Source: a virus
Virus record (IMG/VR): IMGVR_UViG_3300049855_000474
Location: 1-64,000 of that record
Strand: one strand, 5' to 3'
Length of the DNA stretch: 64,000 bases
Shown: positions 4,091 through 57,743 of the stretch, in pieces
Layout of the letters: the number at the start of each line of letters is the position of its first letter
Numbering within the stretch: position 1 is the first letter of the stretch
Position numbers and translations under genes: made by a program
Notes under the pieces: model-generated
The model's database searches: none
Told to the model about the DNA's origin: nothing
Seen by the model: the letters and a program-made list of their open reading frames with translations, nothing else

Positions 4091-4546
4091 ATGTTCGTAC
4101 AAATTGTGATCGGAGTTATTTACGCAAGCCTCGTAGAATGGTTAGTTCATAACTACATTCTACACGGGCTAGGAAAACGTAAAAACAGTGTCTGGTCCTT
4201 CCACTGGCACGAACACCATCACAATTCTAGGAAATATAATTTCGTAGATGCATCCTATCTCCAACCTTTCTATTCTGGTAGCAGGTTCAAAGAGATCCTT
4301 GGGCTACTTGCGCTGGCTTTAGCACAATCTTGGCTATTATTGTGGTTACCTTGGTTTGTTTTCACTACCTGGACCTACTGTGCGGTGTATCTCTGGGCTC
4401 ATCGAAAGTCTCACTTAGAACCTGAATGGTGTAAAAAGTATCTGCCATGGCATTTCGATCACCACTGTGGGAAGAACCAAGATTCTAATTGGGGAGTTGT
4501 TCTCCCTCTCTGGGACTATATTTTACGAACACGAAAGAAAATATAA
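4091..4546 (+). CDS. Fatty acid hydroxylase / sterol desaturase-like membrane protein
   Basis: 151-residue integral membrane protein with the histidine boxes of the fatty acid hydroxylase superfamily: HxxxxH at 20-25, HWHEHHH at 38-44, HxxxH at 104-108, and HFDHH at 121-125 followed by the typical NW..V.PLWD ending. Hydrophobic segments lie at about 1-25 and 68-103. Family members use a di-iron centre to hydroxylate or desaturate lipids. Start ATG 4091 has a strong GGAGG. It is the first gene after a terminator and its stop overlaps the next ATG (TAATG), so the two are translationally coupled. The substrate cannot be told from sequence; lipid modification of the infected cell is an inference. 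Confidence 0.82.
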   Translation: MFVQIVIGVIYASLVEWLVHNYILHGLGKRKNSVWSFHWHEHHHNSRKYNFVDASYLQPFYSGSRFKEILGLLALALAQSWLLLWLPWFVFTTWTYCAVYLWAHRKSHLEPEWCKKYLPWHFDHHCGKNQDSNWGVVLPLWDYILRTRKKI

Positions 4547-4893: not shown

Positions 4894-4917
4894 AATATTA
4901 CATTGGAGTCTAACCGC

Positions 4918-5937
4918 ATGGCGGATCAGAATTATTACGACTTACTCGGTGTTGCGAAAACAGCTACAACAGATGATATCAAAAAGAGCTACAGGAAGTT
5001 AGCTTTAAAATATCATCCAGACCACAATCAAGGAGATAAGAGCTCAGAGGAGACTTTCAAGAAGATCTCAGAAGCGTATGCCACCTTGAGCGATGACCGT
5101 AAACGTAATATCTACGATAATGGCGGCGTTCAACATAGGCAACATAGTTATCAGGATTTCATGAACATCAACCTTGAGGAAATTATGAACAATTTCAGGC
5201 AAGGTAGCGCACAAGAAAATCTAGATCTTCAAACCGACGTTGTAATAGAGCTGAAAGATGCTGTCTATGGAACTAAGGTGGAAGTATCTCTAGACTATAA
5301 CAAAAAGTGCCAACCATGCAAAGGTCTTGGTTCTAAAAATGGACACGCCAAGCAATGCAACAAATGCTTCGGTCGAGGACGTGTATCCGTAGCACAAGGT
5401 GGGTGGAATGTTGCAACAGTCTGCCCAAAATGCAAAGGCACCTGTAACGTACCACTAGACCATGACTGCGGACAATGTAATGGTAAAGGTTCTACTCGTG
5501 TACAACGAAAAATCAAGGTCAATATACCAGCAGGTATCGATAATGGTCAGGTTTTGCGTTTACAAGCACAAGGAGCGGCAGCAAACAATAGAACAGGGGA
5601 TTTGTACGTCAGGGTAAGTGTTCAACCAAACCCGGACTTTGAACGCCACTTCTTCAACCTCGTTACTCCAGTAAAGATCCCATTTGCTACAATCCTTACA
5701 GGTGGGGACATCGAAGTCAAGAACATCAAGGGAGAACTTCTCACTGTACAGGTAGAAGCATGTACACAACCAGGAACACTTCTTAAAGTTCCTGGTCAAG
5801 GTGTGCCTAGCCTTGGGGGAGGTTCTGTAGGTGACTTGCTGGTTGTTGTAGGAATTGAGATACCTACGACGGTAACAGAAGAAGTCAAGCAGAAAGCTCT
5901 AGAGCTACAGCAGGCGATTGAGAACGCAAAGGTGTAA
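4918..5937 (+). CDS. dnaJ: DnaJ-type co-chaperone
   Basis: 339 residues from ATG 4918 (GGAG ten bases upstream; a TTG further upstream is less likely). The J domain carries HPD at 33-35, which stimulates the ATPase of DnaK. The Gly-Phe linker is short. The zinc region has four repeats of the CxxCxGxG type, of which the third ends in Cys rather than Gly. The C-terminal substrate-binding beta domains follow ('[15 protein letters not shown]', '[11 protein letters not shown]'). This is a full type I DnaJ, slightly shorter than bacterial versions. No phage DnaK is in the window, so it probably recruits the host Hsp70, perhaps for replication-complex remodelling or folding of abundant virion proteins. 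Confidence 0.95.
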
Positions 5938-5958: not shown

Positions 5959-8900
5959 ATGAAGTCGGTACTCAAGCACGAAAAAGCCTTCTGTGAAGGT
6001 TGTCCCCTCAACCGAAACAAAGCCAAGAAAACTCATTACATTCCCACCGAAGTCCATTACGATAGAGTGGGTCCGGAAGGTCATGCTGAGGTTGATATCC
6101 TTGTCGTCGGAGATGCTCCAGGTAAGAGCGAAGACGACAATGGAATGCCCTTCACAGGACCCTCAGGCGAAGAGCTGAAAATCTCCCTGAAGAAGATTGG
6201 TATTGAAGGCTCCTTCGCTTTAGCCAATTCTATCAGGTGTCGTCCAACGGATGACGAAGGCAACAATCGCCCACCCTCCATTGAAGAAATTGCTGCTTGC
6301 GGCAACTACATCAAACAGGACTTAATTCAGCTAAAACCCAAGGTTGTTGTCCTTATGGGCAATACAGCCAAGGATATTCTAGCACCAACCCCAGAATGGC
6401 GGACTAAGGGAATTAGCAAGTTATCAGGTGAAATCTTTGTTACAAATGGCGTTACGTACACTGCCACAGTAAACCCCTCCAGCTTTCTACGCAACAATAA
6501 CTATATGGAACGACAGAGGTTCCATCGCCACATCGGCAACATTGGACGAATTCTTTCAGGTGAACAAGGTGCTTTCTCCAGGAAAGGTGTTTCTACACTT
6601 CTTAGAACAGAGAAAGCAGCAATTGATTTTCTGGACCTACTGGAGAACTTTGAAACTGATTTTGTTTGTGTAGACACGGAGACAGAAAATCTAAACCGTG
6701 TAGCACCAAACAAATTAGCCACTATCCAATTTGCTGTAGACAATGATATCGGTTTCGTCCTTCCTCTAGAACACTGGCAATCTCCCTGGACACCAGAGTT
6801 CTTAGAGTACCTTAGGGAGCGGCTAGCTCGCATCTTTAGTAATCCAGAAATCAAAATAGGCGCCTGGGTAGCTCACGGGTCCAAGTTTGACTACGGAAAG
6901 ATCACCAAGTTCTGCCGTATTATTAAGATAGCTCTCCCCATTATGGACCCCATCTTCATGGAGTACCTCCGAGATGAAAATCAAAGGAGAGGCATGGATG
7001 ACGGTGGAGAAGGTGGACTTGATGGTTCTGGTGGTACCAACTTCGATTTAAAGACCATGGCTAAGGACAAGCTGGGGTTCTACTATTACAATGAAAAAAT
7101 ACTAGAGGTCCGAAAAGACGGTAGTCTGGTAGAAGAACCGTTGTGGAATCCTGATAACTCGGTAAGTGAGTTCACTATTTATGCCGGTATGGACGTTTAT
7201 ATCGGTCGCCGTCTCATCTGCTATATCATCAACGAACTAGGACTAACAGAGCATAAAGAAAAATCAATCAACTTTGCTAAGAAGTGGGGTACCCGAGTTA
7301 CCCATCTTCTAACTAAAATTGAAGCCAATGGCTGCTTTGCTGATAAAGACCAATTGGAATACCTACGCAGTGACGACTCCCCGATCCTGAAACGGATGGA
7401 TGAGATTCCAGGGGAAATCACAAGCTCGCCTGAAGGTAAGAAAGCTAACCAGCTGATTCTATCCAAGGATCCTAGAACCAAGGGAATGAAGCCTCTCTTT
7501 GGCAAAGCACCAATTGTATTTGACATCGACAAGAAAGACCACCGAGTAGCTCTGTTGGTCGATACTTGCAAGCTCGAGCCTTTGGCTTACGGAAAGAAGG
7601 AAGGGGAAGCTAAAAGCAAGTACGCCAAGAAGGGCAAGAATGGAGAAATTGATAAAGGAAACGGGGTTCCTTCGATCAATAAGGCGTTCTTCCAGGAATA
7701 TAAAGACCACCCCTTTGCGGCGCTAGTTCAGGAATACGAAGGACTAAAGAAACTGAAGTCCAGCTACCTGAATAGCGTGATGAGCTTTCTGACTGATGAC
7801 ATTATCTACACAAAGCGTGGTCCAAAGTCAAACGCTGATAATTTGTTCGATGGAAGAATCCACCCAACTTTCTGGGACAGTAAAACTGTAACTGGAAGGT
7901 TCGCTGCTTCTGACCCGAACACCCAACAGCTTCCACGCGCCGAGGGTTTTGCCAAAAGCATGATCAAGTCAATGTATGGCGCGGCTCCTGGTCACGTCAT
8001 GCTGGAGGCTGATTTCGGTCAGGCGGAAATTCGTTGGTGGGCTCAAATAGCGAAGGACCAAGAATTCGCTAACTTGTTCAACGGGATGGTGTCTATATTA
8101 GAGGAATTTGAAAGGAATCCAACACCTGAGTTAGCTATTCGAGTATCGAATGAGTGTGACATTCATAAGCAGGTCAGTGCTGCAATGAATCGAGTACCAA
8201 TTGAGCAAGTATCGAAAGATATGCGCCAAGCAGCCAAGGGACTGTGCGTCGCCCCCGGAACTCTAATCCGGACTCCAGAAGGCTTGATTCCTATCGAGGA
8301 AGTAATAAATAGCTGGAAGGGTTCTGTATTGCTGGAAACGCGCAAAGGCGTAGAAGAGGCAAACAGGACTTTCGAGATTACCGTAAATAGAACCCAGAAA
8401 GTGAAAACAAGTAGGGGTTACACAATTCATGGAAGACCCGAGCATCCTGTATTAGTGTGGAGGAGTTGCAAGCTTCAGTTTGTAGAGTTGCAAAATCTCA
8501 ACTCAGAAGACCGTATTGTAACCAGGCGAAATGCCAAGTTGTGGCCTGAGAAATTGGTCAAGTTGGAGCCTTCGATACTAAAGTCTGGGGAAGAAATCTT
8601 CCCCAAAGAAGTTACACCGGACCTAGCTAGGCTACTGGGGTATATTACAAGTGAGGGAACTACAGGATACGAAAAGTTTATCCGTATTCCTAATACAGAT
8701 GAAAGAGTTATTGCTGACCTCAGAGAACTTCTAACATCTAACTTTGGCAAAGAAGCCTTTGCAGAATGTACAGATGATCGAAGTGCGGATAATTGGAAAA
8801 ATATAACTAAATTTACAATAAATTCAACAGCTGCCCGTTACCTTCGAAAACTAGGAGTAGTGGGTATCGAAGATTCGTACACAAAAGTAGTACCCAAAGC

Positions 8901-10326
8901 TATAATGCGGTCTCCGCGTCACGTAGTAATAGAATACCTTCGCGGATATCTTGCTGGGGATGCTTCTTCCAATTTCCACAGAGTTAAAGCCTGTACCGCC
9001 TCAAAACAATTAGCCAAAGAAATTCAAATCCTTCTATTGGACTTGGGGATTGTAGCCAAGCGTGATGGCAGCTACAGGAAGACCAACAAAGGAGAAGGTT
9101 TTTATTGGGATGTCACAGCAGTGGGTAAGGAGGCTGAACGCTGTTGGGCAATTATCCCACCAATCCGTCCTCTGGATGAAGCCTACGAAAAAGAATACAA
9201 CAACGCACAGCTCGATCACATTTACGGACTCCGAGAGTTAGCTAAGAAGTTTGCTGATTCCAACTATCGAGAAAAAGGAAACAAAGAAAACGGGGGTTAT
9301 TGGAAATACCCAGGTTTCCCTTGGACTCGTGCCGAGACTTGGACACTAGATTTCTGCTACAAGCACAAGGAGAAAATTATCAAAGGCTTCAAAGCCCGAG
9401 ATGAGCAACTTGCTTTAGATTTTGAGGAAATCCTTACGCAGGGTTACTTCCTCGATTCAATCGTTGAAAACGAAGTGATCGATCAAGACAACCAAACCGT
9501 CTACGATTTCACCGTTCCAGGCAGCCATTCCTTCGTGACCAATGGAATAGTAGGATCGAACAGCTTTGGCAGTTTATACGGAATGTCGCCTAAGTCACTT
9601 GCTATGCTTGTTAAATGCTCTGAATTTGAAGCTAAGCAATTGATTCAAACGTTCACTAACAAGTTTGAGCGTGCTGGCGGTTGGTTGGAGTATATCGAGG
9701 ATTTTGCAATGGAGAATGGATATGTTATATCGCCATTCGGACGTGCAAGACATCTCGCACCGCTGATCGAACTGAATGAGGGTGCGGCTCGACGGGTAGC
9801 TAGAAACTCACCAATCCAGGGTGCTGCTTCTGATACGACCGCAATGGGGGCTTGGTTAATTCAGGACTGGATTGAGAGGACCAATAGACCTTACAAGATT
9901 TGGAACGTTGTTCACGACGCTATTTCCATAGAAGTTCCCCTTACCAAGGAGGCTATTATAGAAGTTATGGCAGTTATGAAGAACTACATGACTAAGGAAA
10001 TCAACCCGTTCCTAAAGCAGGAATTTAATATCAATCTTATCGTTCCATTAGTTATAGATTTTAAGGTAGGTCTACGCTGGGGTCATTGTAAGACAGTGGA
10101 TCCACTTACGGATATTGATCAATTCGTAGCTACGCTGCAAGAACAGGACCGACGCCTCCATAACGGGGACAAGTGGTGGCAATTGGCTACCGAGCTAGAG
10201 GTAAAGAAGTTGGAGAAGGATTTAAGCAAGATCGAGAAAGAAAAGAAGGAAAACTGGGAGAAAGAGATCGCAAAACGTGTTAGGATGATTGAAGAGCACA
10301 GAAATTCGCTATTGAAGGCTGGTTGA
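5959..10326 (+). CDS. DNA polymerase I family replicative polymerase with N-terminal UDG-like domain and intein
   Basis: 1455-residue precursor. Residues 1 to about 200 resemble family 4/5 uracil-DNA glycosylases: CxxC at 12-15, 'GDAPGKSEDD' and 'PFTGPSG', and two later cysteines that complete the iron-sulphur pattern. A DEDDy 3'-5' exonuclease follows, with D239 and E241 in 'VDTET' and 'YAGMD' as the third motif. The polymerase A palm has motif A 'EADFGQAEIR' (D685) and motif C 'VVHDAIS' (D1320). Motif B is split after 'RQAAKGL' by an intein (residues 763-1201); splicing restores 'KGLSFGSLYG'. The mature protein would be 1016 residues. UDG-polymerase fusions are known in SPO1-like phages. 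It is followed after one base by a small membrane protein gene. Confidence 0.95.
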   Translation: MKSVLKHEKAFCEGCPLNRNKAKKTHYIPTEVHYDRVGPEGHAEVDILVVGDAPGKSEDDNGMPFTGPSGEELKISLKKIGIEGSFALANSIRCRPTDDEGNNRPPSIEEIAACGNYIKQDLIQLKPKVVVLMGNTAKDILAPTPEWRTKGISKLSGEIFVTNGVTYTATVNPSSFLRNNNYMERQRFHRHIGNIGRILSGEQGAFSRKGVSTLLRTEKAAIDFLDLLENFETDFVCVDTETENLNRVAPNKLATIQFAVDNDIGFVLPLEHWQSPWTPEFLEYLRERLARIFSNPEIKIGAWVAHGSKFDYGKITKFCRIIKIALPIMDPIFMEYLRDENQRRGMDDGGEGGLDGSGGTNFDLKTMAKDKLGFYYYNEKILEVRKDGSLVEEPLWNPDNSVSEFTIYAGMDVYIGRRLICYIINELGLTEHKEKSINFAKKWGTRVTHLLTKIEANGCFADKDQLEYLRSDDSPILKRMDEIPGEITSSPEGKKANQLILSKDPRTKGMKPLFGKAPIVFDIDKKDHRVALLVDTCKLEPLAYGKKEGEAKSKYAKKGKNGEIDKGNGVPSINKAFFQEYKDHPFAALVQEYEGLKKLKSSYLNSVMSFLTDDIIYTKRGPKSNADNLFDGRIHPTFWDSKTVTGRFAASDPNTQQLPRAEGFAKSMIKSMYGAAPGHVMLEADFGQAEIRWWAQIAKDQEFANLFNGMVSILEEFERNPTPELAIRVSNECDIHKQVSAAMNRVPIEQVSKDMRQAAKGLCVAPGTLIRTPEGLIPIEEVINSWKGSVLLETRKGVEEANRTFEITVNRTQKVKTSRGYTIHGRPEHPVLVWRSCKLQFVELQNLNSEDRIVTRRNAKLWPEKLVKLEPSILKSGEEIFPKEVTPDLARLLGYITSEGTTGYEKFIRIPNTDERVIADLRELLTSNFGKEAFAECTDDRSADNWKNITKFTINSTAARYLRKLGVVGIEDSYTKVVPKAIMRSPRHVVIEYLRGYLAGDASSNFHRVKACTASKQLAKEIQILLLDLGIVAKRDGSYRKTNKGEGFYWDVTAVGKEAERCWAIIPPIRPLDEAYEKEYNNAQLDHIYGLRELAKKFADSNYREKGNKENGGYWKYPGFPWTRAETWTLDFCYKHKEKIIKGFKARDEQLALDFEEILTQGYFLDSIVENEVIDQDNQTVYDFTVPGSHSFVTNGIVGSNSFGSLYGMSPKSLAMLVKCSEFEAKQLIQTFTNKFERAGGWLEYIEDFAMENGYVISPFGRARHLAPLIELNEGAARRVARNSPIQGAASDTTAMGAWLIQDWIERTNRPYKIWNVVHDAISIEVPLTKEAIIEVMAVMKNYMTKEINPFLKQEFNINLIVPLVIDFKVGLRWGHCKTVDPLTDIDQFVATLQEQDRRLHNGDKWWQLATELEVKKLEKDLSKIEKEKKENWEKEIAKRVRMIEEHRNSLLKAG
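8245..9561 (+). other. Intein with LAGLIDADG-type homing domain in polymerase motif B
   Basis: 439 residues, beginning with Cys ('CVAPGTLIRT', block A) and ending in Asn, with Ser as the +1 extein residue. Block B is 'GRPEHPVLV', with Arg where Thr is usual before PEH. Two degenerate LAGLIDADG helices are visible, 'LLGYITSEG' and 'LRGYLAGDA', consistent with a homing endonuclease. Block F/G is 'VYDFTVPGSHSFVTNGIVGSN'-like, with Ser in place of the usual penultimate His. The junctions rebuild an intact polymerase motif B, which fixes both ends with good confidence. Confidence 0.92.
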
Positions 10327-11829: not shown

Positions 11830-12564
11830 ATGACAGCCACATTCTCAGATGAAGACTTGCAAGCAGTAGTACTGCAGCTAAAGAGGGCTAATTCGGAACT
11901 TGAGCGCTTCGCTTATGTAGCGTCACATGATTTGAAGGCTCCGCTTAGAGCCATTTCGAACTTAGCGTCTTGGATTAAGGAAGACAGTGACAATAAGTTT
12001 TCTAAGGAATCCGTTGAACATTTCAATATGATGCTCAATAGAGTTTCTAGAATGGAAAAATTGTTGGATGATATTCTAGCCTATGCTAAGGTAGGTAAGA
12101 GAGATAATACTTTCGAGTCGGTCAACCTTGTTGAAATGATTCAAAGCATATTTTATATGCTTCCAAATAAGCGTTTCACGGTCCTAACCGAATCTACAGT
12201 ACCTACTTTTTTTGCTGAAAGGTATCCTCTCGAGCAGGTGCTTCGAAATTTGATTAGTAACTCAATCAAGCACCATCACGCAGGAAAAGGAACTATTACA
12301 GTTAGTATAGAAGAACTACAAAAACATATACAGTTTACAGTTACGGACGATGGTCCTGGAATTCCTAAGGAAAATCAGGCAGAATGCTTCGAGATGTTTC
12401 GAACGCTGAAACCCCGAGATGAGGTTGAAGGGTCCGGAATGGGTCTTGCTTTAGTTAAAAAGATTGTAGAGAACCAAGGTGGGTCAATAGATATTCTACC
12501 CTCTAACAAGGGTTTGAGTATTCGTTTCTTGTGGCCTCGATTCGATCGGTACAGAGAAGAATGA
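11830..12564 (+). CDS. Sensor-less histidine kinase
   Basis: 244 residues. The H box is 'ASHDLKAPLR' with phospho-acceptor H33; the N box is 'LRNLISNSIKHH', followed by G1 'DDGPGIP' and G2 'GSGMGLALV', so the ATPase domain is complete. Only a short coiled N-terminus precedes the HisKA domain: there is no sensor or membrane segment, so it is cytoplasmic and either constitutive or controlled by a partner. The H box most resembles phytochrome-type kinases. No Shine-Dalgarno is seen; TATAAT lies four bases before the ATG. The stop overlaps the start of a receiver protein (ATGA). Phosphotransfer to that protein and to the REC-GGDEF protein is inferred from the arrangement. Confidence 0.93.
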   Translation: MTATFSDEDLQAVVLQLKRANSELERFAYVASHDLKAPLRAISNLASWIKEDSDNKFSKESVEHFNMMLNRVSRMEKLLDDILAYAKVGKRDNTFESVNLVEMIQSIFYMLPNKRFTVLTESTVPTFFAERYPLEQVLRNLISNSIKHHHAGKGTITVSIEELQKHIQFTVTDDGPGIPKENQAECFEMFRTLKPRDEVEGSGMGLALVKKIVENQGGSIDILPSNKGLSIRFLWPRFDRYREE

Positions 12565-12965
12565 GTATTACAATTTTAGTCATTGATGATGATAACGTGG
12601 ATGTGTTAGCCTTACGCAGGTCTTTCAAGAAGCACAAAGTTCTTCGTTATGCCGATCTACAAACGGCTAAAGATGGGCGGCATGCCTTGACTCTCCTTAC
12701 AGGGCAGTGCCCTATCAAACCAACGCTAGTTCTTCTAGACTTAAATATGCCTGGTATGAATGGACTACAATTCCTAGATAATGTCCGGTCTATCCCTTCC
12801 TTGCAATATCTCAGAATACTAGTGTTGACCACGTCTGCTGATGATACCGACATCAAAGCTGCAAACTCCAAATGTATTGTAGGATACGTTACAAAGTCTA
12901 AAGCTGGAAATTATACTGAATTAACCGATCTGCTAAATAATTACTGCAATCTCACGGAGAGTTAA
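12561..12965 (+). CDS. Stand-alone response regulator receiver
   Basis: 134 residues from ATG 12561 (ATGA overlap with the kinase). A CheY-like receiver with acidic pocket 'IDDDN', phospho-acceptor D60 in 'LLDLNMPG', Thr in 'VLTTS' and Lys in 'VTKSK'. There is no output domain. It resembles the small receivers paired with phytochrome-type kinases. It probably serves as a phosphate carrier or sink between the kinase and the diguanylate cyclase encoded one base downstream, or acts by protein contacts. Confidence 0.93.
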   Translation: MSITILVIDDDNVDVLALRRSFKKHKVLRYADLQTAKDGRHALTLLTGQCPIKPTLVLLDLNMPGMNGLQFLDNVRSIPSLQYLRILVLTTSADDTDIKAANSKCIVGYVTKSKAGNYTELTDLLNNYCNLTES

Positions 12966-12966
12966 G

Positions 12967-13899
12967 TTGCACAAACCCTGGAATATTTTCTTGCTGGAGG
13001 ATGATGAAGCGGATAAGCTGCTTGTGCAGGTAACGCTAAAGCATTCAGGGGTGCCGTTTACGTTGACCCACGCCAAAACTATGGACGAGGCTAGGAGTAT
13101 TTTAGATTCTAGTGGTGCTCTGTTTGACTGTGCTCTACTAGATAGGTCGGTTCCTGGGGGTTGTGGATTAGACTTAGTTAGCCATAATAAACTACAGTCA
13201 GTACCTTGTATCATGCTAACTGGAAATCAGGACGAGACAGTAGCCTTACAAGCACTACAGCGGGGTCTTGAAGATTATATTATGAAGGGTGACATCACCA
13301 GGCACACTCTGGTGCGAGCTATCCGGTACGCTATGGAACGTAATAGTATCAAATGCGCTTTATCTGAAGCGAAAAAGAAACTAGAAGAATTGGTGAAAAC
13401 AGATCACCTGACTGGTCTTTTGAATCGCCGGGGTTTGGAAGAACTGCTTCAACGGCTGCTACAACGAAACTCTAACTTTGAAGAGAATCACGGCGTAATA
13501 CTCATCGATATTGACAACTTCAAGGCTATCAATGATACCTTAGGGTATGATGCTGGAGATGAGGCACTACGATTTGTAGCTACCAAGCTCAGGCTGTGTT
13601 CCCGTCCTTTAGATCATGTAGCTCGTATTGGTGGTGACGAGTTTATCATACTCCTAACAAATGTTGAGATGGAACAATGCGCTGCTATCTCAGAACGAAT
13701 TCGGACTACTTTTGAGGAAACACTACTCAATATAAGGGGATCCGAACTGAACGTAACGGTGAGTATGGGGGTATCGGCATTAAACAATGCCTCTACAGTA
13801 GAGGAACTGTTCAAAGCAACCCAAGCCGCACTTCACTGTAGCAAAAAACAAGGTAAAAACGCTGTGTGTATGAATTCCACAATACCACCAAGCAGGTAG
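12967..13899 (+). CDS. REC-GGDEF diguanylate cyclase
   Basis: 310 residues, TTG start at 12967 one base after the receiver stop and with GGAG upstream. Residues 1-125 are a receiver (D59 in 'LLDRSVPGG', Lys in 'IMKGDI'). A short coiled linker leads to a GGDEF domain with 'LTGLLNRRG', 'DIDNFKAIND' and the signature GGDEF at 222-226. RPLD at 213-216, five residues before the signature, matches the inhibitory I-site. All residues needed to make cyclic di-GMP from two GTP appear present, with product inhibition. In the host this could lock cells in a sessile or non-motile state; that consequence is inference. Confidence 0.95.
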   Translation: MHKPWNIFLLEDDEADKLLVQVTLKHSGVPFTLTHAKTMDEARSILDSSGALFDCALLDRSVPGGCGLDLVSHNKLQSVPCIMLTGNQDETVALQALQRGLEDYIMKGDITRHTLVRAIRYAMERNSIKCALSEAKKKLEELVKTDHLTGLLNRRGLEELLQRLLQRNSNFEENHGVILIDIDNFKAINDTLGYDAGDEALRFVATKLRLCSRPLDHVARIGGDEFIILLTNVEMEQCAAISERIRTTFEETLLNIRGSELNVTVSMGVSALNNASTVEELFKATQAALHCSKKQGKNAVCMNSTIPPSR

Positions 13900-17098: not shown

Positions 17099-17645
17099 TA
17101 ACTGTACCGTATCCGATTCCCCAGTAAAAGTTAGTAAGGCAGTGTCCTACACCTTTCATTTTAAACCATATGGATGGGCAATTTACACAGTTAACGAAAC
17201 TACGGGGGAATTTCATATAACTAGTGATTGGGGAAGTTTTTCCCACCGTTGGGATCCCAAGAATCTAGGTGAGAAAACTTTTCAACAGTTTCTGATTAAG
17301 GCAGAACCTTCTTATATCTGTAGAAAGTTTGCTGCCGCAAATAAAGAGCTAAATGAAGTAGTAGACGAAGAAGAGACGCTAAAAGCTATTAAGACACGGA
17401 TTCTAGAAGATCGTAGAAGTCGATTTATACCTTCCAAGGAAGAAGCAGAGTTGCTTCTTAGTTTGGCTGAAGAGTGGGCTGATGCCGATTTCTCGGAAGC
17501 TGTAATACCTTCCGAATTTTTCGATTACTCTTATGAAGACTTTCTACATACTAAGGAATCTTACACAGCGAAAGTAGTTACTACGCTTCTACTCCCCGCT
17601 TTCCAGAGTTATTTAAAAGAAAGCAAAGTACCAAACCATGATTAA
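17091..17645 (+). CDS. Hypothetical protein, 184 aa
   Basis: Start ATG lies within the end of the preceding tiny ORF. The N-terminal part is aromatic and beta-type ('YTFHFKPYGWAIYTVN'), the C-terminal two thirds acidic and helical. The C-terminus runs eight bases into tnpB and looks complete, so the TnpB gene has not obviously truncated it. Function unknown. Confidence 0.6.
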   Translation: MDNNCTVSDSPVKVSKAVSYTFHFKPYGWAIYTVNETTGEFHITSDWGSFSHRWDPKNLGEKTFQQFLIKAEPSYICRKFAAANKELNEVVDEEETLKAIKTRILEDRRSRFIPSKEEAELLLSLAEEWADADFSEAVIPSEFFDYSYEDFLHTKESYTAKVVTTLLLPAFQSYLKESKVPNHD

Positions 17646-18831
17646 CCGAGCCCACAAAATCGAGTTAGACCCCACTGTTGCGCAGGCGATATACTTCGCT
17701 AAAGCGTGTGGGGTCGCTCGTTTTACTTACAACTGGGCTCTAGTGGAATGGAAGAAGCAATACCAGGAAGGTAGTAAGCATAAAGAGTTTGCTATCAATA
17801 AGCAACTAAACTCAATTAAATCAATTGAGTTTCCTTGGATGTATGAAGTAACTAAGCGGGCTCCACAACAGGCAGTTAAGAACTTAGGCTCAGCGTACAA
17901 GCGTTTCTTAAAGAAGCAAGGTAAATATCCTCGATTTAAGAAGAAGGGTGTTCATGATAGCTTCAGAGCCGATAACGGACCTGTAGATAAATATAGTCAT
18001 GCTGTCAAGATCATCGGAAAAGAAGTGATTTTACCTCGTGTAGGTAAAGTAAGAATGAAACAAACACTTAGATTTAACAACGGAAGGATAATTTCAGTTA
18101 CTGTTTCTAGGGAAGCGCATAAATGGTTTGCTAGTATTTTATTAGAGATCGAACACACTAAACCAATCCGTGAGAACCAAGCGGTGGTTGGGGTGGATCT
18201 TGGCATCAAAAGTCTAGCAGTCCTTAGTGACGGAACAGTATTTGAAAATCCAAAAGCATTAAGGAGCAACTTAAAGAAACTAAAACGACTTTCTCGGTCA
18301 CTGTCTAGAAAGCAGAAAGGTTCTGCTAACAGAAAGAAAGCTCGTATGAAATTAGCTCGATTACATTATCGGATAAGCTGTATTAGAAAAGACGCCCTCC
18401 ATAAGGTAACCACGTTCTTGACTAAGAAGTTCACTTTAATTGGGGTTGAGGATCTCAATGTTAGTGGGATGGTTAGGAATAGGAAACTCGCCAGAGCCCT
18501 TAGTGATGTTGGTTTTGGTGAGTTTAGAAGGCAGTTGACTTACAAATCAGAACTTTACAGCTCTAATTTGTTTGTGGCTGACAGATGGTTTCCTAGTTCA
18601 AAGACATGTTCTCAATGTGGACTTGTAAAAGAGACACTGGAGCTATCAGAACGATCCTGGTGTTGCCTTGCGTGTAATACGATACACGATCGAGATGTAA
18701 ATGCAGCTATTAATTTAAAGATGTTGGCGGAGAGTTCCTCCGTGTCAGTCTGTGGAGCGGATGTCAGCCTCGGTCTCGCGACCGAGCAGACCGTGATGAA
18801 GCAGGAACCAGGTAATACCTATGTTGACTAG
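17638..18831 (+). CDS. tnpB: TnpB-type RNA-guided nuclease (IS200/IS605 OrfB family)
   Basis: 397 residues. The RuvC-like triad is intact: D187 in 'VGVDLGIKSL', E271 in 'GVEDLNV' and D353 in 'HDRDVNAA'. The zinc finger is CxxC at 324-327 and CxxC at 343-346. The N-terminal wedge and a basic helical region (205-245) are present, so the length is normal. Family members are guided by an RNA transcribed from the gene's 3' end. There is no TnpA transposase and no room for a left end, since the ATG overlaps the upstream gene by eight bases; it appears fixed within the early gene string. Function in the phage (homing, competition with other phages) is inferred. Confidence 0.93.
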   Translation: MINRAHKIELDPTVAQAIYFAKACGVARFTYNWALVEWKKQYQEGSKHKEFAINKQLNSIKSIEFPWMYEVTKRAPQQAVKNLGSAYKRFLKKQGKYPRFKKKGVHDSFRADNGPVDKYSHAVKIIGKEVILPRVGKVRMKQTLRFNNGRIISVTVSREAHKWFASILLEIEHTKPIRENQAVVGVDLGIKSLAVLSDGTVFENPKALRSNLKKLKRLSRSLSRKQKGSANRKKARMKLARLHYRISCIRKDALHKVTTFLTKKFTLIGVEDLNVSGMVRNRKLARALSDVGFGEFRRQLTYKSELYSSNLFVADRWFPSSKTCSQCGLVKETLELSERSWCCLACNTIHDRDVNAAINLKMLAESSSVSVCGADVSLGLATEQTVMKQEPGNTYVD

Positions 18832-50092: not shown

Positions 50093-50169
50093 TGGCTCTA
50101 GGGGCAGGGCTTGAACCTGCGACCCTTCGTTTAACAGACGAACGCTCTTACCAACTGAGCTACCCTAGA
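50093..50169 (-). tRNA. tRNA-Asn (anticodon GTT), CCA encoded
   Basis: Cloverleaf: acceptor TCTAGGG/CCCTAGA, D arm GCTC/GAGC, anticodon stem TTCGT/ACGAA with loop CTGTTAA, T arm GCAGG/CCTGC with TTCAAGC. Discriminator G73 and CCA are encoded. Last of three tandem tRNAs on the minus strand. Confidence 0.95.
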
Positions 50170-50180
50170 ATAATAATAAT

Positions 50181-50256
50181 TGGTCCCTGGGATCGGTATC
50201 GAACCGATTGCCTCTGCGGCTTCACTGCAGCGCTCTACCATTTGAGCTACCCAGGG
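50181..50256 (-). tRNA. tRNA-Phe (anticodon GAA), CCA encoded
   Basis: Acceptor CCCTGGG/CCCAGGG, D arm GCTC/GAGC, anticodon loop GTGAAGC with U33 and GAA, T arm ATCGG/CCGAT with TTCGATA. One A-C mismatch at the top of the anticodon stem. A73 and CCA are encoded. Confidence 0.92.
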
Positions 50257-50257
50257 T

Positions 50258-50332
50258 TGGTTCCTGGGGTGAGATTCGAACTCACGACTTGTCGATTAAG
50301 AATCGACGACTCTACCGCTGAGTTACCCAGGA
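50258..50332 (-). tRNA. tRNA-Lys (anticodon CTT), CCA encoded
   Basis: Acceptor TCCTGGG/CCCAGGA, D arm ACTC/GAGT, anticodon stem GTCGA/TCGAC with loop TTCTTAA, T arm GTGAG/CTCAC with TTCGAAT, A73 and CCA. Only one base separates it from tRNA-Phe, so the tRNAs are processed from a common transcript. Confidence 0.95.
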
Positions 50333-50529: not shown

Positions 50530-51327
50530 CTATGGTGCAAGCGTCCCAACGATGATTATCCTCCTAGAGGGCGGATAAAGGAACAACCTTTCCTCCTGTG
50601 AGGTACCTAACAAGCTTTGAAAGTAGCGAATCCTGTAGAGCTTGTAGCCTAGAGTCCCAGGTTCTTGTACTTTCTTTCGACCCAGCTTCCAGTCCGCTCG
50701 AGCCACCTTCCAAATATCGAAGTTTTCAGTTTCTAGAATCTGGAACTGGATTGTTACTTTCTTAGCAGGACCACTACCATACAGGGCGATATGGACAATC
50801 CCAGGTATAGAAATATCCGTAACTATCTTAACAGGAAACGGGTAGGTGTTCTTTACTTGTAGATCCTTCACTCCCCAGATAACTGTCGCGTCTAGAGATG
50901 GCTGGATATAAGAACTAGCACGAGAATGTGGGGAGTGCTCTACTATATCTAAGCCAGCATAGAGAAATACGGCATGAAGAGTGCTGGCAGCTTGGCATAC
51001 ACCACCACCGAAATCCTTACGAAGGCGCTTCTTAAAGATGACCTTCGCTTTCTTGAAACCCTGCTTTTCTGTCCGTGGTCCTACAGTTTTATTAAACGAA
51101 AATAACTCGTTAGGTTGTATTACAACGCCATCAAGCAGTTGTGCGGCAAGTTTGATATTGGCAGCTCTAGCGCCGTGTGCCTTACCACGATAAGAAAACT
51201 CAGTCTTATACTCAGAGAGTAGTGTAGATTGAGCATGAGCCCGAGGACACGAGCCCAATAAAACCAAGATCAGTAATACTAAAAGTAGCGACAATAAAGC
51301 ATTTTTCAGCACAAAAACCCTATTCAA
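50530..51327 (-). CDS. VanW-like exported protein
   Basis: 265 residues, TTG start overlapping the upstream stop. Signal peptide or anchor at about 8-32. The VanW domain is clear: 'ARAANIKLAAQLLDGVVIQP', 'FSFNKTVGPRT', 'FGGGVCQAASTLHAVFLYAG' and 'HSPHSRASSYI'. VanW proteins are found in some vancomycin-resistance clusters and in many exported bacterial proteins; their biochemical role is unresolved but is linked to the cell wall. Rare in phages. It follows two small membrane or exported proteins in a minus-strand operon that ends with tRNAs. Confidence 0.9.
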   Translation of the reverse strand: MNRVFVLKNALLSLLLVLLILVLLGSCPRAHAQSTLLSEYKTEFSYRGKAHGARAANIKLAAQLLDGVVIQPNELFSFNKTVGPRTEKQGFKKAKVIFKKRLRKDFGGGVCQAASTLHAVFLYAGLDIVEHSPHSRASSYIQPSLDATVIWGVKDLQVKNTYPFPVKIVTDISIPGIVHIALYGSGPAKKVTIQFQILETENFDIWKVARADWKLGRKKVQEPGTLGYKLYRIRYFQSLLGTSQEERLFLYPPSRRIIIVGTLAP

Positions 51328-51952: not shown

Positions 51953-52264
51953 TCACAATGATAAAGATTTCTTCCACGAACGCAATTTTGCATTTAAGTT
52001 ATCTCGACCCTGAGGATTGGCACTATGAACATGCCAATCCGGTGGTCCTTCCTCATAATAGTTTTCGGAAAGCCAGTTGACAAAAGACATAACATCAACA
52101 GTGTTACCGGCTGAATCCAGACCGAGGTCATGGTCCAAAGACATAAAAGAAGGAAGTCCAAGTTCTAGGACAATAGCCTTGGCGTCTTCGAATGTTCGTG
52201 CTAACACATAGCTATCGTCCGGTGGAGTACGTTCATCATCTAGATACAAGATGTAACCAGTCAT
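51953..52264 (-). CDS. Cyclic-phosphate processing receiver (cREC) domain protein
   Basis: 103 residues. 'LYLDDERTPPD' at the N-terminus, 'SLDHDLGLDSAGNT' in the middle and 'WHVHSANPQGRDNL' near the end are the signature of cREC domains, a receiver-like fold predicted to process cyclic phosphates at RNA ends. First gene of the minus-strand operon; predicted leaderless promoter. May act with tRNA or RNA repair, in keeping with the downstream tRNAs. Confidence 0.85.
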   Translation of the reverse strand: MTGYILYLDDERTPPDDSYVLARTFEDAKAIVLELGLPSFMSLDHDLGLDSAGNTVDVMSFVNWLSENYYEEGPPDWHVHSANPQGRDNLNAKLRSWKKSLSL

Positions 52265-52270
52265 GACCTA

Positions 52271-52299
52271 GTGATACAACAAATTTTTGTTGGTGGCAA
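52271..52299 (-). promoter_or_regulatory. Promoter for the cREC-VanW-tRNA operon, leaderless
   Basis: On the minus strand TTGCCA (52299-52294), 17-base spacer, TATCAC (52276-52271), then six bases (TAGGTC) to the ATG at 52264. Confidence 0.6.
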
Positions 52300-52325: not shown

Positions 52326-53871
52326 ATGCAGCTAAAGACAATTAAAAAGTTGCTACGAGAAGGCAAGCTGGAGGAAGCTGAACGAGAGTTCATGTATTCT
52401 CTATACAGTACAGAAGGTTTAAAACTCTGGAAAGAGGCTTTGTTGATCAAGAATCCTGAGGATAAAATTCCTCATCTTCTCGGGTTCGCCACAAAGATTG
52501 TATTCTGCGAGAAAATAACAACAGCCTCTGTAAATTTCCATACCAAGGTAATTAAACTAGGGTCAACGTTCTTCTGTGATTATATTTCATCCTGGGGAGA
52601 TGTCATATTCATCCTGATGCACGAACGAAATCACCTTCTTATAGACTACTTCTATACGTCCAGAATGAACGAATTTAAAAACCGCATATTTGCCAACATG
52701 TGGGAAGATATCTACATAAACAATACAATACTAGAACATGTTGATAGCCAACTATGTCAGAGGTTCTACGCGAATCCTGATGCCAATAATCTGGATTGGT
52801 TAATGAGCCAATCAAAGATTTACGAATGGTTCAGTTGGTTCAATAAAGAGCATGCTAGGGTAGTTGTTGCCTGTCCTACCTTTTTCGAGTTTGCGGAACA
52901 ATTAAGCGAGGGTCTGCTGGACCCTAAAAATGTAGGTTATTACAGCTGGATGGAAATTGGGTTAGCTGTAGAACTCGAAATTACGACGGAGAGATATCTT
53001 GACATTGGAGGACTTCCAGAGAACAATGGAGAAAGTGGAGGCTCTCTTCCAGAGCTAGAAGAGGGGTCCTCATCATCAGAGGACTCCACAGAGGATTTGG
53101 TTCTGGAGGAGAGAGACAAAGAACTAACTATTGACAGTTATCCGGTGACAAAAACACGCGTAGGTCCACAAAGCTTACCTGAGCATATAAAAGAGCTGTT
53201 AGCATTAAAACTTTCCAGTGATGAGTATATTTACAGAAATACGGATAGACAGGCTACGTACAAAGAAGTGATAAGTAGACAAGTTGTTCAACCGTTATTA
53301 GCTTCCAGAATAATAGATGACGAGTACAAAGTACTTTCACCTTTCCCCTCGTCTATCTCAAGACGAGACATTTTTTCTCTTGCCTGCGGACTAGTACCCA
53401 CATACTGGGAACAAAATCGACATAAACCGGTAGAGGAAAAAGCAATTTCACTCTATATAGATACAAGTGGGAGTATGCAAGAGTGGTACCCGATGATACC
53501 ACAAATCGTAAAGGAATTAAACGGTTTTTGTTCTCTGGTTTACAACTTCGACACCCACGTAATACAGGTCGAAGACCCCTTGAGCAGCGTAATATACAAT
53601 ACCACACAAGGAACAAACTACAATAAAGTCTGTAAGCACATTACAGAAAACGAGATTAATAGCATTATAGTTTTCTCTGACAGTACGGAGTCGATCCAGA
53701 AAAGCTATATAAAGAGCCTGGGACTGCGACTGAAACAATTCATATACATCACCACATCTAAAAAAGATGGTAAGAGCTGTGGCTTTATAGAGTTAGCCAA
53801 AGAGATGGGTGACAAAAAAGCTAAAGTAGTATATCTAGGCAACGTAACAGCTACAAAGAAGGAGTTCTCTT
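52326..53871 (+). CDS. VWA-domain protein with N-terminal metallopeptidase-like region
   Basis: 515 residues from ATG 52326; an in-frame TTG at 52287 is possible. Stop is TGA 53871-53873. The N-terminal half has HERNH at 99-103, matching the HExxH zinc motif, in a helical domain like the DUF2201-type regions of bacterial VWA proteins. A Ser/Glu-rich linker follows (about 235-265). The C-terminal VWA domain has a MIDAS site DTSGS starting at D379 and later 'IIVFSDST'. It is coupled (TTGA overlap) to a MoxR-type ATPase, the usual partner of such VWA proteins in chaperone-like or metal-insertion complexes. Confidence 0.85.
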
Positions 53872-55042
53872 GATTGAACAATTAGGAATTATTGGATGGG
53901 GTAAGATAGAACCTATCATCCTATCCGCCCTTCTGGCTGGTGAGCCTATCCTTTTTGTAGGGTCTCATGGTGTCAACAAGACTGATGGTGCTCAAGCTCT
54001 GAGTGAAGGGGTTCTGGGGTTAGGAACAAATTACGTTAAATACGAAACACCAATCATCCAAAACGATGATATCCTTGGATATATCAATGCTAAGGACATG
54101 ATGGAAGGCAAGTTGAGTTACCTACAAACCCCAGCATCCTTATGGGCAGCTGACGCAGTTGGTTTGGATGAGCTTAATCGAGCTAATCCTATGACAGCCG
54201 CTAAGCTCATGGAGACCGTGCGTACGAAAAGTATCATGGGAATGAAGACAAATCTAAAACTTGTCTTCGCCATGATAAATCCACCACAGGATTATGATAC
54301 TATCTATATTGACGTGGCTTTAGCTTCCAGATTCGTGATTATCAAGGTGCCTGGAACAAAGCAGTTGAGCACATCGGATCTTACAGAAATTATTCAGGGT
54401 ACCGAAAAAGACCCAAAGAGTTTTAAGGATTTCAAAGAGGAATTCGAGAAAATTCAGGCTGTAGAGCTTGACACTGAAGACAAGCAACAAATAACAAAAA
54501 TGGTTGTCAATATTGGGCGTAAACTCAAAGAGGTAGAGATTGAGCCTAGAGAGCTAAAGACCATTGCCAAGCTGCTGGTAACAGCACAAAAGTTGAAAAG
54601 AAGCAACTTTCCTCTTGACGAAGGTGTAATGGCTGACATAATCCTAAGCAAGATACCCCAAGCATGGGGCATCACGCGACATCAAGTCGATGCTAAAAAC
54701 ATACGCCCAACACTGCTTCAAAACCTAATAGGCTTTGCTCTCAATGATCCACTAAGTAAAGCCACTACAATTGAAGAAGTATTAAAAGCGCCGAAAGCGG
54801 ATAATCTTGCTTGGGCAAGCGCTCTCCTAGCTGTAATTTCTAAGGAAACCGACGCTAGCAAGTTACGATCCCTATTGGGTCAGTTGAACACCGTAACAAA
54901 TGCAGAAATAACAAACCACTGCATGCAAGCTGCCGTTACTCGTATACTAGAGATTTCCGAAAAGGGTATGATCCCAAAAGACTACCTAACATGGGATCGC
55001 GAGGAAATGAAGGATCTTGTGAAGGAAATTGTCAATGCTTGA
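53870..55042 (+). CDS. MoxR-type AAA+ ATPase
   Basis: 390 residues, TTG start with GGAG upstream and a four-base overlap with the VWA gene. Walker A GSHGVNKT at 31-38 (Asn replaces the usual Gly), Walker B/MoxR sequence 'VGLDELNRANP' near 97-107, sensor 'FAMINPPQDYDT' and 'LASRFVIIKV'. The C-terminal 150 residues are helical. MoxR ATPases work with VWA proteins to remodel or activate target proteins. Pairing of both in one phage operon with two metallopeptidase-like proteins is unusual. Confidence 0.9.
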   Translation: MIEQLGIIGWGKIEPIILSALLAGEPILFVGSHGVNKTDGAQALSEGVLGLGTNYVKYETPIIQNDDILGYINAKDMMEGKLSYLQTPASLWAADAVGLDELNRANPMTAAKLMETVRTKSIMGMKTNLKLVFAMINPPQDYDTIYIDVALASRFVIIKVPGTKQLSTSDLTEIIQGTEKDPKSFKDFKEEFEKIQAVELDTEDKQQITKMVVNIGRKLKEVEIEPRELKTIAKLLVTAQKLKRSNFPLDEGVMADIILSKIPQAWGITRHQVDAKNIRPTLLQNLIGFALNDPLSKATTIEEVLKAPKADNLAWASALLAVISKETDASKLRSLLGQLNTVTNAEITNHCMQAAVTRILEISEKGMIPKDYLTWDREEMKDLVKEIVNA

Positions 55043-55550
55043 ATTGGGTTTGGGCGAGTTGAACAGAGTTCTACATACGAATGCCAGTCTAAATTACTAT
55101 TTCACAAACAAAGGGCTGATAAACTCGGGTTCTGCTGTGAATATTCCTGCTTATGCTACATCCCGCCCACTACCGAAAATAGAGCTATCGAAGTTACTGC
55201 TGCTCCAGCTTATAAACAAGAAGGACAACAGTACAATACTGGTAGAATTTTTCGGTAACCAAACACGTGCCTTCGGTGTACCTACAAAACCAGGATTCGA
55301 GAATCAATACAAAGCAAGCGGTTTGCATGCCTTGTTTATGCCAGAACCTGGTCTGAATTTGGATAAGAAAGAGTGGGAATTAGAACGACTGTTTATATCA
55401 CCAACATTACACGAATTAGCACTGCACAACTTTCTTCCTATGCTACTGTCTGCGCCAGTCCCTAATAACATTTGCACAGTTCTAACAAAAAACAATAGAG
55501 GGCAGAAAGCCTACCAACCCGATTACATTAATCTAATGGCAAAGAAATAA
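55035..55550 (+). CDS. Hypothetical protein, 171 aa, in the MoxR-VWA cluster
   Basis: ATG 55035 (AAGGA upstream) overlaps the MoxR stop by eight bases. Mixed alpha/beta, with 'STILVEFFGNQTRAFGVP' and 'FISPTLHELALHNFLPMLL' segments. Resembles a PRTRC-type or small adaptor protein only in general size; not identified. Tight coupling implies that it works with the ATPase and VWA proteins. Confidence 0.6.
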   Translation: MLELGLGELNRVLHTNASLNYYFTNKGLINSGSAVNIPAYATSRPLPKIELSKLLLLQLINKKDNSTILVEFFGNQTRAFGVPTKPGFENQYKASGLHALFMPEPGLNLDKKEWELERLFISPTLHELALHNFLPMLLSAPVPNNICTVLTKNNRGQKAYQPDYINLMAKK

Positions 55551-55561
55551 AGGAGACCAAA

Positions 55562-56350
55562 GTGATTGAAATTTATTTGATGGATGGTTGTGAAGAGGAA
55601 TCGCTCCGTAAGTTCTTGACGCGGCTGGTTGATATGCAACTCGCTTATACGATCAAGAAGCTCCCCAAGAAGCCTTACCGCCTGCTGAGTTGTTACGTTG
55701 AAGGTGCTTTCAAACAGGCTGGGATTTGGGGTTTGCCTGTTGAGCGTGGACATCTGCGACTACTCTGTGCTAGCGAGCAAGTAGGACCTTTGTTCGGTCA
55801 ATCGGTTACACTCAAGCGCAAGGATGGCGTCCAAAAGCTGATGTTTGCTTCACATCCAGATCCAGATACCTTGTGCACAGTAGCGCTCCACGAGCTTGGA
55901 CACGCCTTGAAGGCTGTTCGTAAGAAGACTCATGATTGTGTCATGGTTGTGAAGACCAAGAAAGAGTTGTCTGCGGAGACCACCAGGACGCTTATCCAGC
56001 AAGGTGCCCTGGAAAAGTTAGGCAAGCTTTACCCGGAGTCAATGGTAGAGCTGGGAGGATCCCACTGTCTTGAGGCTGCATGTATTATGCAGGTAGCCCC
56101 ATCTAATAGCGCAATTGGCTTTGATCAGCCATTCTGCGATCTTTGTTTCGAAAACGTAAAAGACGAAGTGAAGAAGGTAAATGCCGAGTTTGATGCTGTC
56201 AAGAACAAGTGTGGAGAATGCACTTATCTTAAGCGGTGCATGAATACGAAGGAGTGGGTATGGGACGGCTCCGACCCCTGTGACGAGTTTGAGCAAGATC
56301 CTACTTTGATGGCGAATAATACGCCGCCCCAACAAGCGAAGGCAGACTGA
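55562..56350 (+). CDS. Archaemetzincin-like zinc metalloprotease
   Basis: 262 residues, GTG start with AGGAG. Active-site helix HELGH at 110-114. About 50 residues later come 'GSHCLEAACIMQ' (H168, C169, C174) and 'FCDLC' (C192, C195), the order seen in archaemetzincins (M54), whose HExxH region, HC..CxM and CxxC are normally closer together. A C-terminal CGEC...C region adds another zinc module. Probably a protease of the infected cell or of the virion. GC-richer codon use than neighbours. Its place after the MoxR-VWA genes suggests joint function. Confidence 0.78.
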   Translation: MIEIYLMDGCEEESLRKFLTRLVDMQLAYTIKKLPKKPYRLLSCYVEGAFKQAGIWGLPVERGHLRLLCASEQVGPLFGQSVTLKRKDGVQKLMFASHPDPDTLCTVALHELGHALKAVRKKTHDCVMVVKTKKELSAETTRTLIQQGALEKLGKLYPESMVELGGSHCLEAACIMQVAPSNSAIGFDQPFCDLCFENVKDEVKKVNAEFDAVKNKCGECTYLKRCMNTKEWVWDGSDPCDEFEQDPTLMANNTPPQQAKAD

Positions 56351-56618: not shown

Positions 56619-57743
56619 ATGACTAACTCCGATATCCGCTCGAAACTTATTCCTTATTTTACAAATTTACATTATCGAGAGGTACCAACAGCTCAACGGG
56701 CTGTTGGTTGTCTTGTCCTACTTGATAATGTGAAGACTTACGATGAAATTGTAGCGGATTTCGAGTCAGAAGAAAACTACAAATCCTTCCTTAGACCAGT
56801 TAAAGCACTACTCACAGATTCCTTTTGTGCTCGAAATGCCTGGCGAGCTGCTTTATATGCAACCGGTCAAAATATTGACTTAAACAAAGCAGCACAAGCC
56901 TTCAAAGTCAACCAGAGTGATTTTTATTTTCTCTGGGATGGTCTAAAGGAAGAAGATCGGGATATTATCAGACATAATGCCAAGGAATCGCCTGTACTAC
57001 TCAAACAGTTAGCAAAGGAAGATTTGCGAGGTTTGATGAACAGGCTTAGCAAATTTTGTAAGCAAATTGCTTATCAGAAACTTCGATTCCTACAGACGAC
57101 AGACAATGCTATACTTATGGAGGATATTCATAGTGAACTCCTAACAAAAGCCCTTAAGATGGTAAGACATTACGAACATATGTCTGAGGATGGAAAAACT
57201 CATGCTATTCTAAAAATAGAAAATTATGCCAGATCCGGCATAGCCAACTATGTTACGAATATGATCAACTTTTATACCACAAAGAAGCGGGCTCGTGTCC
57301 AGAATACCACGGAAATCTGCGGTACCTGTGATTATTGCCTAGCTGGACATATTACACATTGCCGTAATGCCGTCAATAGCTTCCAAGCAACTACCTTGCG
57401 AATTGATCTCCCAGCTAATGCTGACAATCCAGCCTCAATTGCTTCCAGCCTGAGAACTTCCCTGCGTCCCTACGACGAAACTTTAGTAGAGGACGAGATG
57501 CTGCAAACCATGTTGAGGGGAAGCAGTGACGAGCTGAAAAACTTCGTTAATATCGTAACTGACGTGCAAACTCCAGAAGAATTTGAAAGATGGCTCCAGC
57601 TACACTATGATGTCCGTGTAGATGAAATTACAGACGATCGCAAAATGACAAATTACGCCCTAGAATACTTAGACCTGCAGAAACCTCAAACTAGACGTAT
57701 GCTACAAGCTAAGTATAATAAATACGCGGGTGACCGACGATGA
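56619..57743 (+). CDS. Possible sigma-factor-like protein with zinc insert
   Basis: 374 residues, ATG with AAGG upstream. Residues about 165-228 ('MEDIHSELLTKALKMVRHYE', then 'YARSGIANYVTNMINFYTTKKRAR') have the pattern of sigma region 2: an acidic helix followed by a helix ending in basic residues. A CxxCxxC...HxxHC cluster follows at about 234-248. The C-terminal end is helical and basic. A phage sigma or late-transcription factor is plausible, but no region 4 HTH can be shown. Confidence 0.45.
   Translation: MTNSDIRSKLIPYFTNLHYREVPTAQRAVGCLVLLDNVKTYDEIVADFESEENYKSFLRPVKALLTDSFCARNAWRAALYATGQNIDLNKAAQAFKVNQSDFYFLWDGLKEEDRDIIRHNAKESPVLLKQLAKEDLRGLMNRLSKFCKQIAYQKLRFLQTTDNAILMEDIHSELLTKALKMVRHYEHMSEDGKTHAILKIENYARSGIANYVTNMINFYTTKKRARVQNTTEICGTCDYCLAGHITHCRNAVNSFQATTLRIDLPANADNPASIASSLRTSLRPYDETLVEDEMLQTMLRGSSDELKNFVNIVTDVQTPEEFERWLQLHYDVRVDEITDDRKMTNYALEYLDLQKPQTRRMLQAKYNKYAGDRR

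Follow-up and report, generated by a model that had tools for sequence, protein, structure and literature searches.

The first 64,000 nucleotides of the virus record IMGVR_UViG_3300049855_000474 (hereafter, the window) carry four adjoining genes that encode a VWA protein with an N-terminal HExxH motif, a MoxR-type ATPase, a protein without recognizable relatives (ORF3) and an archaemetzincin-like protein. Their arrangement raises the question of whether the four genes form a single system, as the initial annotation proposed, or are separable neighbours that happen to adjoin.

The phage record and its kin

The record containing the window has 153,375 bases and encodes a DnaB helicase, a ribonucleotide reductase, a terminase, a major capsid protein (MCP) and an intein-bearing family A DNA polymerase, as well as long genes that are tail-gene-like on size and order alone. 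Judging from the polymerase, helicase, reductase, terminase, capsid and tail-like genes, the record is that of a large tailed phage. The terminase and MCP share about 30–35% identity with those of 200–260-kb phages, e.g., BcepSauron, Motura and Vibrio GR7B. IMG/VR yielded a single kin record (IMGVR_UViG_3300049847_000494, hereafter G001), whose terminase and capsid proteins are 69% and 75% identical, respectively, to those of the window phage. Neither near-identity searches nor tblastn turned up a significant match in the phage collection, whether the query was the window or one of its proteins, and PDB sequence searches returned chance matches only. Single-protein scans of IMG/VR revealed zero relatives of MoxR, VWA and ORF3, and the G001 homologue as the sole relative of the archaemetzincin-like protein. 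With two aligned sequences each, the AlphaFold predictions reached a mean pLDDT of 33.9 for the archaemetzincin-like protein and 33.0 for the VWA protein, and these predicted models are too poor for judging ring, zinc or MIDAS geometry.

Several other genes of this phage were recorded. A histidine kinase (HisKA and HATPase_c), a single-domain response regulator and a REC-GGDEF diguanylate cyclase overlap or adjoin at 11830–13899 (+) and are kept in the same order in G001 (61, 58 and 52% identity, respectively); a two-component/c-di-GMP signalling cassette of this kind appears to be unusual for a phage. A 1455-aa protein (5959–10326, +) combines a uracil-DNA glycosylase, a 3'-5' exonuclease and a family A DNA polymerase interrupted in frame by a LAGLIDADG intein, and is conserved in G001, as are a full-length DnaJ (4903–5937, +; J domain, CXXCXGXG and C-terminal domain) and a fatty-acid hydroxylase-type protein (4091–4546, +). 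The window also has an IS605 OrfB/TnpB-like gene with a Cas12f1-like TNB domain (17638–18831, +). The large subunit of ribonucleotide reductase (1317 aa; L003 1060–5013, –, equal to G000 84060–88013) has an HNH-like insertion in its middle, probably an intein or homing element.

Layout of the locus

The four open reading frames lie on the plus strand at 52287/52326–56350, co-directional and in agreement with the initial annotation, which had described them as coupled. The VWA frame opens with a TTG at 52287, and the ATG at 52326 is the likelier start. The VWA and MoxR genes overlap by TTGA and the MoxR and ORF3 genes by ATGCTTGA; the ORF3 frame opens at 55029, and its ATG at 55035 begins a 171-aa gene (55035–55550) whose start overlaps the MoxR stop. 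The archaemetzincin-like gene starts with a GTG at 55562, 11 bp past the end of ORF3. No terminator-like site was seen on the plus strand in this 11-bp gap, so all four genes could be co-transcribed.

The shared direction and the three tight junctions speak for one machine made of the four genes, in which MoxR–VWA (with ORF3) would remodel and switch on the archaemetzincin-like protease, which would cut host or virion proteins. Against this, the protease gene is preceded by a separate ribosome-binding site (AAAGGAG) and has a GC3 of 0.529, versus about 0.41 for the VWA/MoxR/ORF3 trio (genes >150 aa: mean 0.416, s.d. 0.064).

The VWA and MoxR proteins

The VWA protein (52326–53873, +) was compared with a profile of five phage proteins (Atu_ph07, CBB, phiYS40, LR756511 and L049, the last found by motif search). 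It aligned end to end, through both HERNH and DTSGS, with a HMMER E-value of 6.6e-10 (Z = 20000) and an hhalign probability of 96.8%, versus 2.8% for the best of 60 shuffles. PHROG 1314 matches its N-terminal part (5e-5) as well as its VWA part. The HERNH (HExxH) of the metallopeptidase-like domain is encoded at 52620–52634, and the DTSGS (MIDAS DxSxS) of the VWA domain at 53460–53474; the latter and a QGTNY (GT motif) align with the phage DUF2201 family. Pfam and PHROG models match both the VWA and the MoxR protein weakly, and a direct Pfam match of the VWA protein to PF13203 was not reached.

The MoxR-type AAA+ ATPase (53870–55042, +) matches phrog_1297 at 1.8e-6 and, with scores below the Pfam cut-offs, bpMoxR (5e-5, the best) and AAA_3 (1.8e-4). 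A MoxR profile comparison by hhalign (96.4%) spans the Walker A/B and sensor regions. The sequence motifs expected of an AAA+ ATPase are present, i.e., Walker A (GSHGVNKT, 53960–53983), Walker B with its DE (DELNRANP, from 54167), the sensor 1 Asn (MINPP) and the Arg finger (ASRF), and residues G31, G34, K37, D100, E101, N128 and R154 are invariant in the MoxR alignment. The names given to the four parts by the initial annotation were apt, and the motifs stem from homology rather than chance.

We also considered a ternary VWA-MoxR conflict (defence) system such as those of Kaur et al. 2020, a reading to which the bpMoxR match of the ATPase and the third coupled gene, ORF3, would lend themselves. 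A VMAP, FtsH or beta-propeller third component was not found, there was no PADLOC match, and the VWA protein is of the DUF2201 phage type. ORF3 itself matched nothing in Pfam, PHROG, NCBIfam or PADLOC and has no viral relative. With its third component missing, the conflict-system reading was rejected as very improbable.

The 15 relatives of the VWA protein that were inspected share the signature H[E/Q]xxHxxxxH, with a conserved Asp further along (typically in AxDxxIN). The window protein keeps the HERNH and the Asp, and has Tyr in place of the His five residues past the second His, which is present in 15/15 relatives; in the Atu_ph07 protein, Gln replaces the catalytic Glu. Given these losses, peptidase activity is no safe assumption, and peptide cutting by the N-terminal domain in the window phage appears doubtful. 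Such lapses in the signature suggest that, in some phages at least, the domain binds peptides or proteins instead of cutting them. The initial annotation's count of two metallopeptidases is uncertain, given the His that the VWA protein lacks.

MoxR–VWA pairs in other phages

The initial annotation could not place the cluster, but its MoxR–VWA pair has a published counterpart. Iyer et al. 2021 (PMC7824862) described, from jumbo phages of group 2.2, a MoxR (ASV44729.1) together with a VWA protein (ASV44728.2) that carries a metallopeptidase domain at its N-terminus, and proposed that the two serve as a virion-assembly chaperone. Searching phage records with PHROG 1314 and 1297 recovered ASV44728/ASV44729 as neighbours in Agrobacterium phage Atu_ph07, and likewise neighbouring MoxR and VWA genes in CBB, phiYS40 and LR756511. 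By Pfam, the CBB and Atu_ph07 VWA proteins consist of DUF2201_N (putative metallopeptidase) and DUF2201.

The pair is widespread. A tblastn search with the Atu_ph07 VWA protein found relatives in 676 phage records, with N4-like phages, vequintaviruses and phage G among them. A MoxR match was adjacent to, or at most about 1.1 kb upstream of, the VWA gene in 6/10 neighbourhoods opened, and MoxR lies adjacent to or near VWA in 11 of the 15 phages inspected (Atu_ph07, CBB, phiYS40, LR756511, L049, LIT1, D467, Kuerle, Axy24, 4L372XY and RHph_TM29). MoxR comes first in all 11, versus VWA first in the window. Relatives of ORF3 were not found among the neighbours of the other pairs, and a similar-sized gene inside the LIT1 pair (gp34) showed no relation to ORF3 when compared. 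A vequintavirus 'anti-sigma factor' adjoining VWA has no Pfam match and was left out of the MoxR count; the Campylobacter record A12a, which is marked unverified and is by taxonomy a vequintavirus, was left out as an indication of host range. In GenBank, the metallopeptidase-VWA protein of phages (e.g., LIT1 gp35, Pollock, D467) is often labelled 'HNH endonuclease', as is PHROG 1314, likely an annotation error.

Taken together, the alignments indicate that the first two genes of the locus are a divergent member of the known phage MoxR–VWA (DUF2201_N + DUF2201) module.

The archaemetzincin-like protein

The fourth gene (55562–56350, +) encodes an archaemetzincin-like (M54) metalloprotease. The NCBIfam archaemetzincin model NF033823 matches its C-terminal motif region at 3e-4, and with 20.7 bits versus a cut-off of 145 bits we name the protein archaemetzincin-like rather than a member of M54. 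A profile of the window and G001 proteins scored 92.7% by hhalign against 12 cellular archaemetzincins, and of 100 column shuffles the best reached 29% and the next 2.2%; a likely matrixin (L143) was left out of the archaemetzincin profile, and the result was the same with it in. The G001 homologue is 62% identical and conserves all motif residues.

The archaemetzincin consensus is HEXXHXXGXXHCX4CXMX17CXXC (PMC3427221). A contiguous HExxHxxGxxH is absent from the phage protein, where the alignment runs from HELGHAL (HELGH at 55889–55903, kept in G001) through about 48 inserted residues to GGSHC-LEAA-CIM and CDLC. The insertion (55913–56050), which lies between HELGHxL and (G)xxHC and is conserved in G001, splits the motif. 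The third His, Met-turn and Cys4 zinc site follow at 56063–56146 (HC-LEAA-CIM-x15-CDLC, also kept in G001), with a spacing of 15 residues, not 17.

This insertion could be regulatory, and the archaeal AfAmzA is occluded and inactive in vitro, for which its authors suggest triggered activation (PMC3427221). Both points would suit the one-machine reading. A version of it in which MoxR–VWA is coupled to the archaemetzincin through the insert, with ATP-driven remodelling opening an occluded protease, would be an AAA+-switched metzincin. It would also give the family, most of whose archaeal members show no activity in vitro, its first activator; we give this version very little credence.

A tblastn search of 50,697 phage records with one cellular archaemetzincin found none, and an M54 profile had no match in 11 other large phages. 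On this limited search, phage archaemetzincins appear rare.

Separability of the four genes

Downstream of its archaemetzincin-like gene, G001 has a 374-aa gene, further genes and a phosphoesterase, which is the order of the window; the preceding gene differs. The 374-aa protein (56619–57743, + in the window) is 41% identical in G001 and adjacent there. VWA, MoxR and ORF3 were not found anywhere in G001, a 132,976-bp and possibly incomplete record for which gene absence is firm at the archaemetzincin-like locus only. Conversely, no relative of the archaemetzincin-like protein was found near the MoxR–VWA pairs of other phages, in the stretches or records searched.

As the protease gene occurs in G001 without the trio, and pairs occur elsewhere without the protease, we conclude that the four genes are not one system. 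The single unit initially annotated is not confirmed, given G001, and activation or delivery of the protease by MoxR–VWA is unsupported, as each is found without the other; the gene-neighbourhood comparison revealed independent occurrence for the protease gene, a result that the initial annotation had named as counter-evidence. Despite the tight junctions, one machine made of all four genes is thus very improbable.

Just upstream of VWA lies a cREC_REC gene (51953–52264), and a VanW-family protein with a hydrophobic N-terminus is encoded at 50530–51327 (–), adjoining tRNA genes (50093–50332). Neither the VanW nor the cREC gene was found in G001. The gene order fits a variable accessory stretch ahead of a conserved block, which may reflect gain here or loss in G001, both being possible. 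This case suggests that phages can acquire or lose the pair irrespective of the genes around it.

Proposed functions of the pair and the protease

Given the homology, motifs, gene overlaps and separability observed here, we consider it probable that MoxR–VWA is a phage chaperone pair and that the downstream archaemetzincin-like protease is separate, belongs to another conserved gene block and works independently. No functional test of a MoxR–DUF2201 pair was found in the literature. From what is known of RavA–ViaA and ATV p618/p892, we infer that the ATPase is most likely a ring that remodels a VWA-recruited client. The MoxR ATPase would presumably assemble as an AAA+ ring, with the VWA protein as its adaptor, whose MIDAS and N-terminal metallopeptidase-like domain may bind the client. 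ATP hydrolysis would then remodel or unfold the bound client. ORF3, translationally linked, is a possible local accessory. The downstream protein would act independently of the pair, as an archaemetzincin-like zinc protease whose active-site motif is split by the insertion.

A narrower version of the chaperone-pair explanation names the client, with the pair serving as a virion-assembly chaperone or processing unit. Besides the published proposal (PMC7824862), the involvement of ATV p618/p892 in tail development and the position of the CBB pair after structural genes point this way. In N4-like and several other phages, however, the pair lies among replication and nucleotide-metabolism genes (helicase, DNA polymerase, dCTP deaminase), and it was not found in G001 despite common capsid and tail genes. 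A virion role of the pair is possible and is not favoured by gene context alone; we regard this specific assignment as tentative and rather unlikely.

Comparison with known systems

Among the widespread phage chaperone pairs of this kind, the one described here is divergent but ordinary, and the adjacent, separable archaemetzincin-like gene is mildly novel; absent from the other phages searched, its product is a small new lead.

The experimental precedent for a viral MoxR–VWA pair is p618/p892 of Acidianus two-tailed virus (ATV), which function in tail development and for which interaction was shown; the ATV VWA protein has no peptidase domain (Iyer et al. 2021, PMC7824862). The window pair likewise joins a viral MoxR ATPase to a VWA partner, but it is known from sequence, whereas ATV is an archaeal virus whose pair was shown to interact and whose VWA protein has no such domain. 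With RavA-ViaA and other cellular MoxR-VWA chaperones, the two-protein principle is shared and the VWA architecture differs; to our knowledge, the HExxH domain is absent from RavA-ViaA-type cellular VWA proteins. The closest resemblance is to the Atu_ph07-type MoxR-(metallopeptidase-VWA) pair (PF13203 + PF09967; PHROG 1314 + 1297), with which the window shares neighbouring genes, the N-terminal HExxH and the full-length architecture, and from which it differs in its reversed order, the +5 His replaced by Tyr, its extended and strongly diverged sequence and the extra ORF3. The fourth protein resembles archaemetzincin (AmzA, M54) in its HELGH, HC-x4-CxM and CxxC, and differs in its insert of about 48 residues, the 15-residue spacing ahead of CxxC (17 in archaemetzincin), an extra C-terminal Cys cluster and being encoded by a phage.
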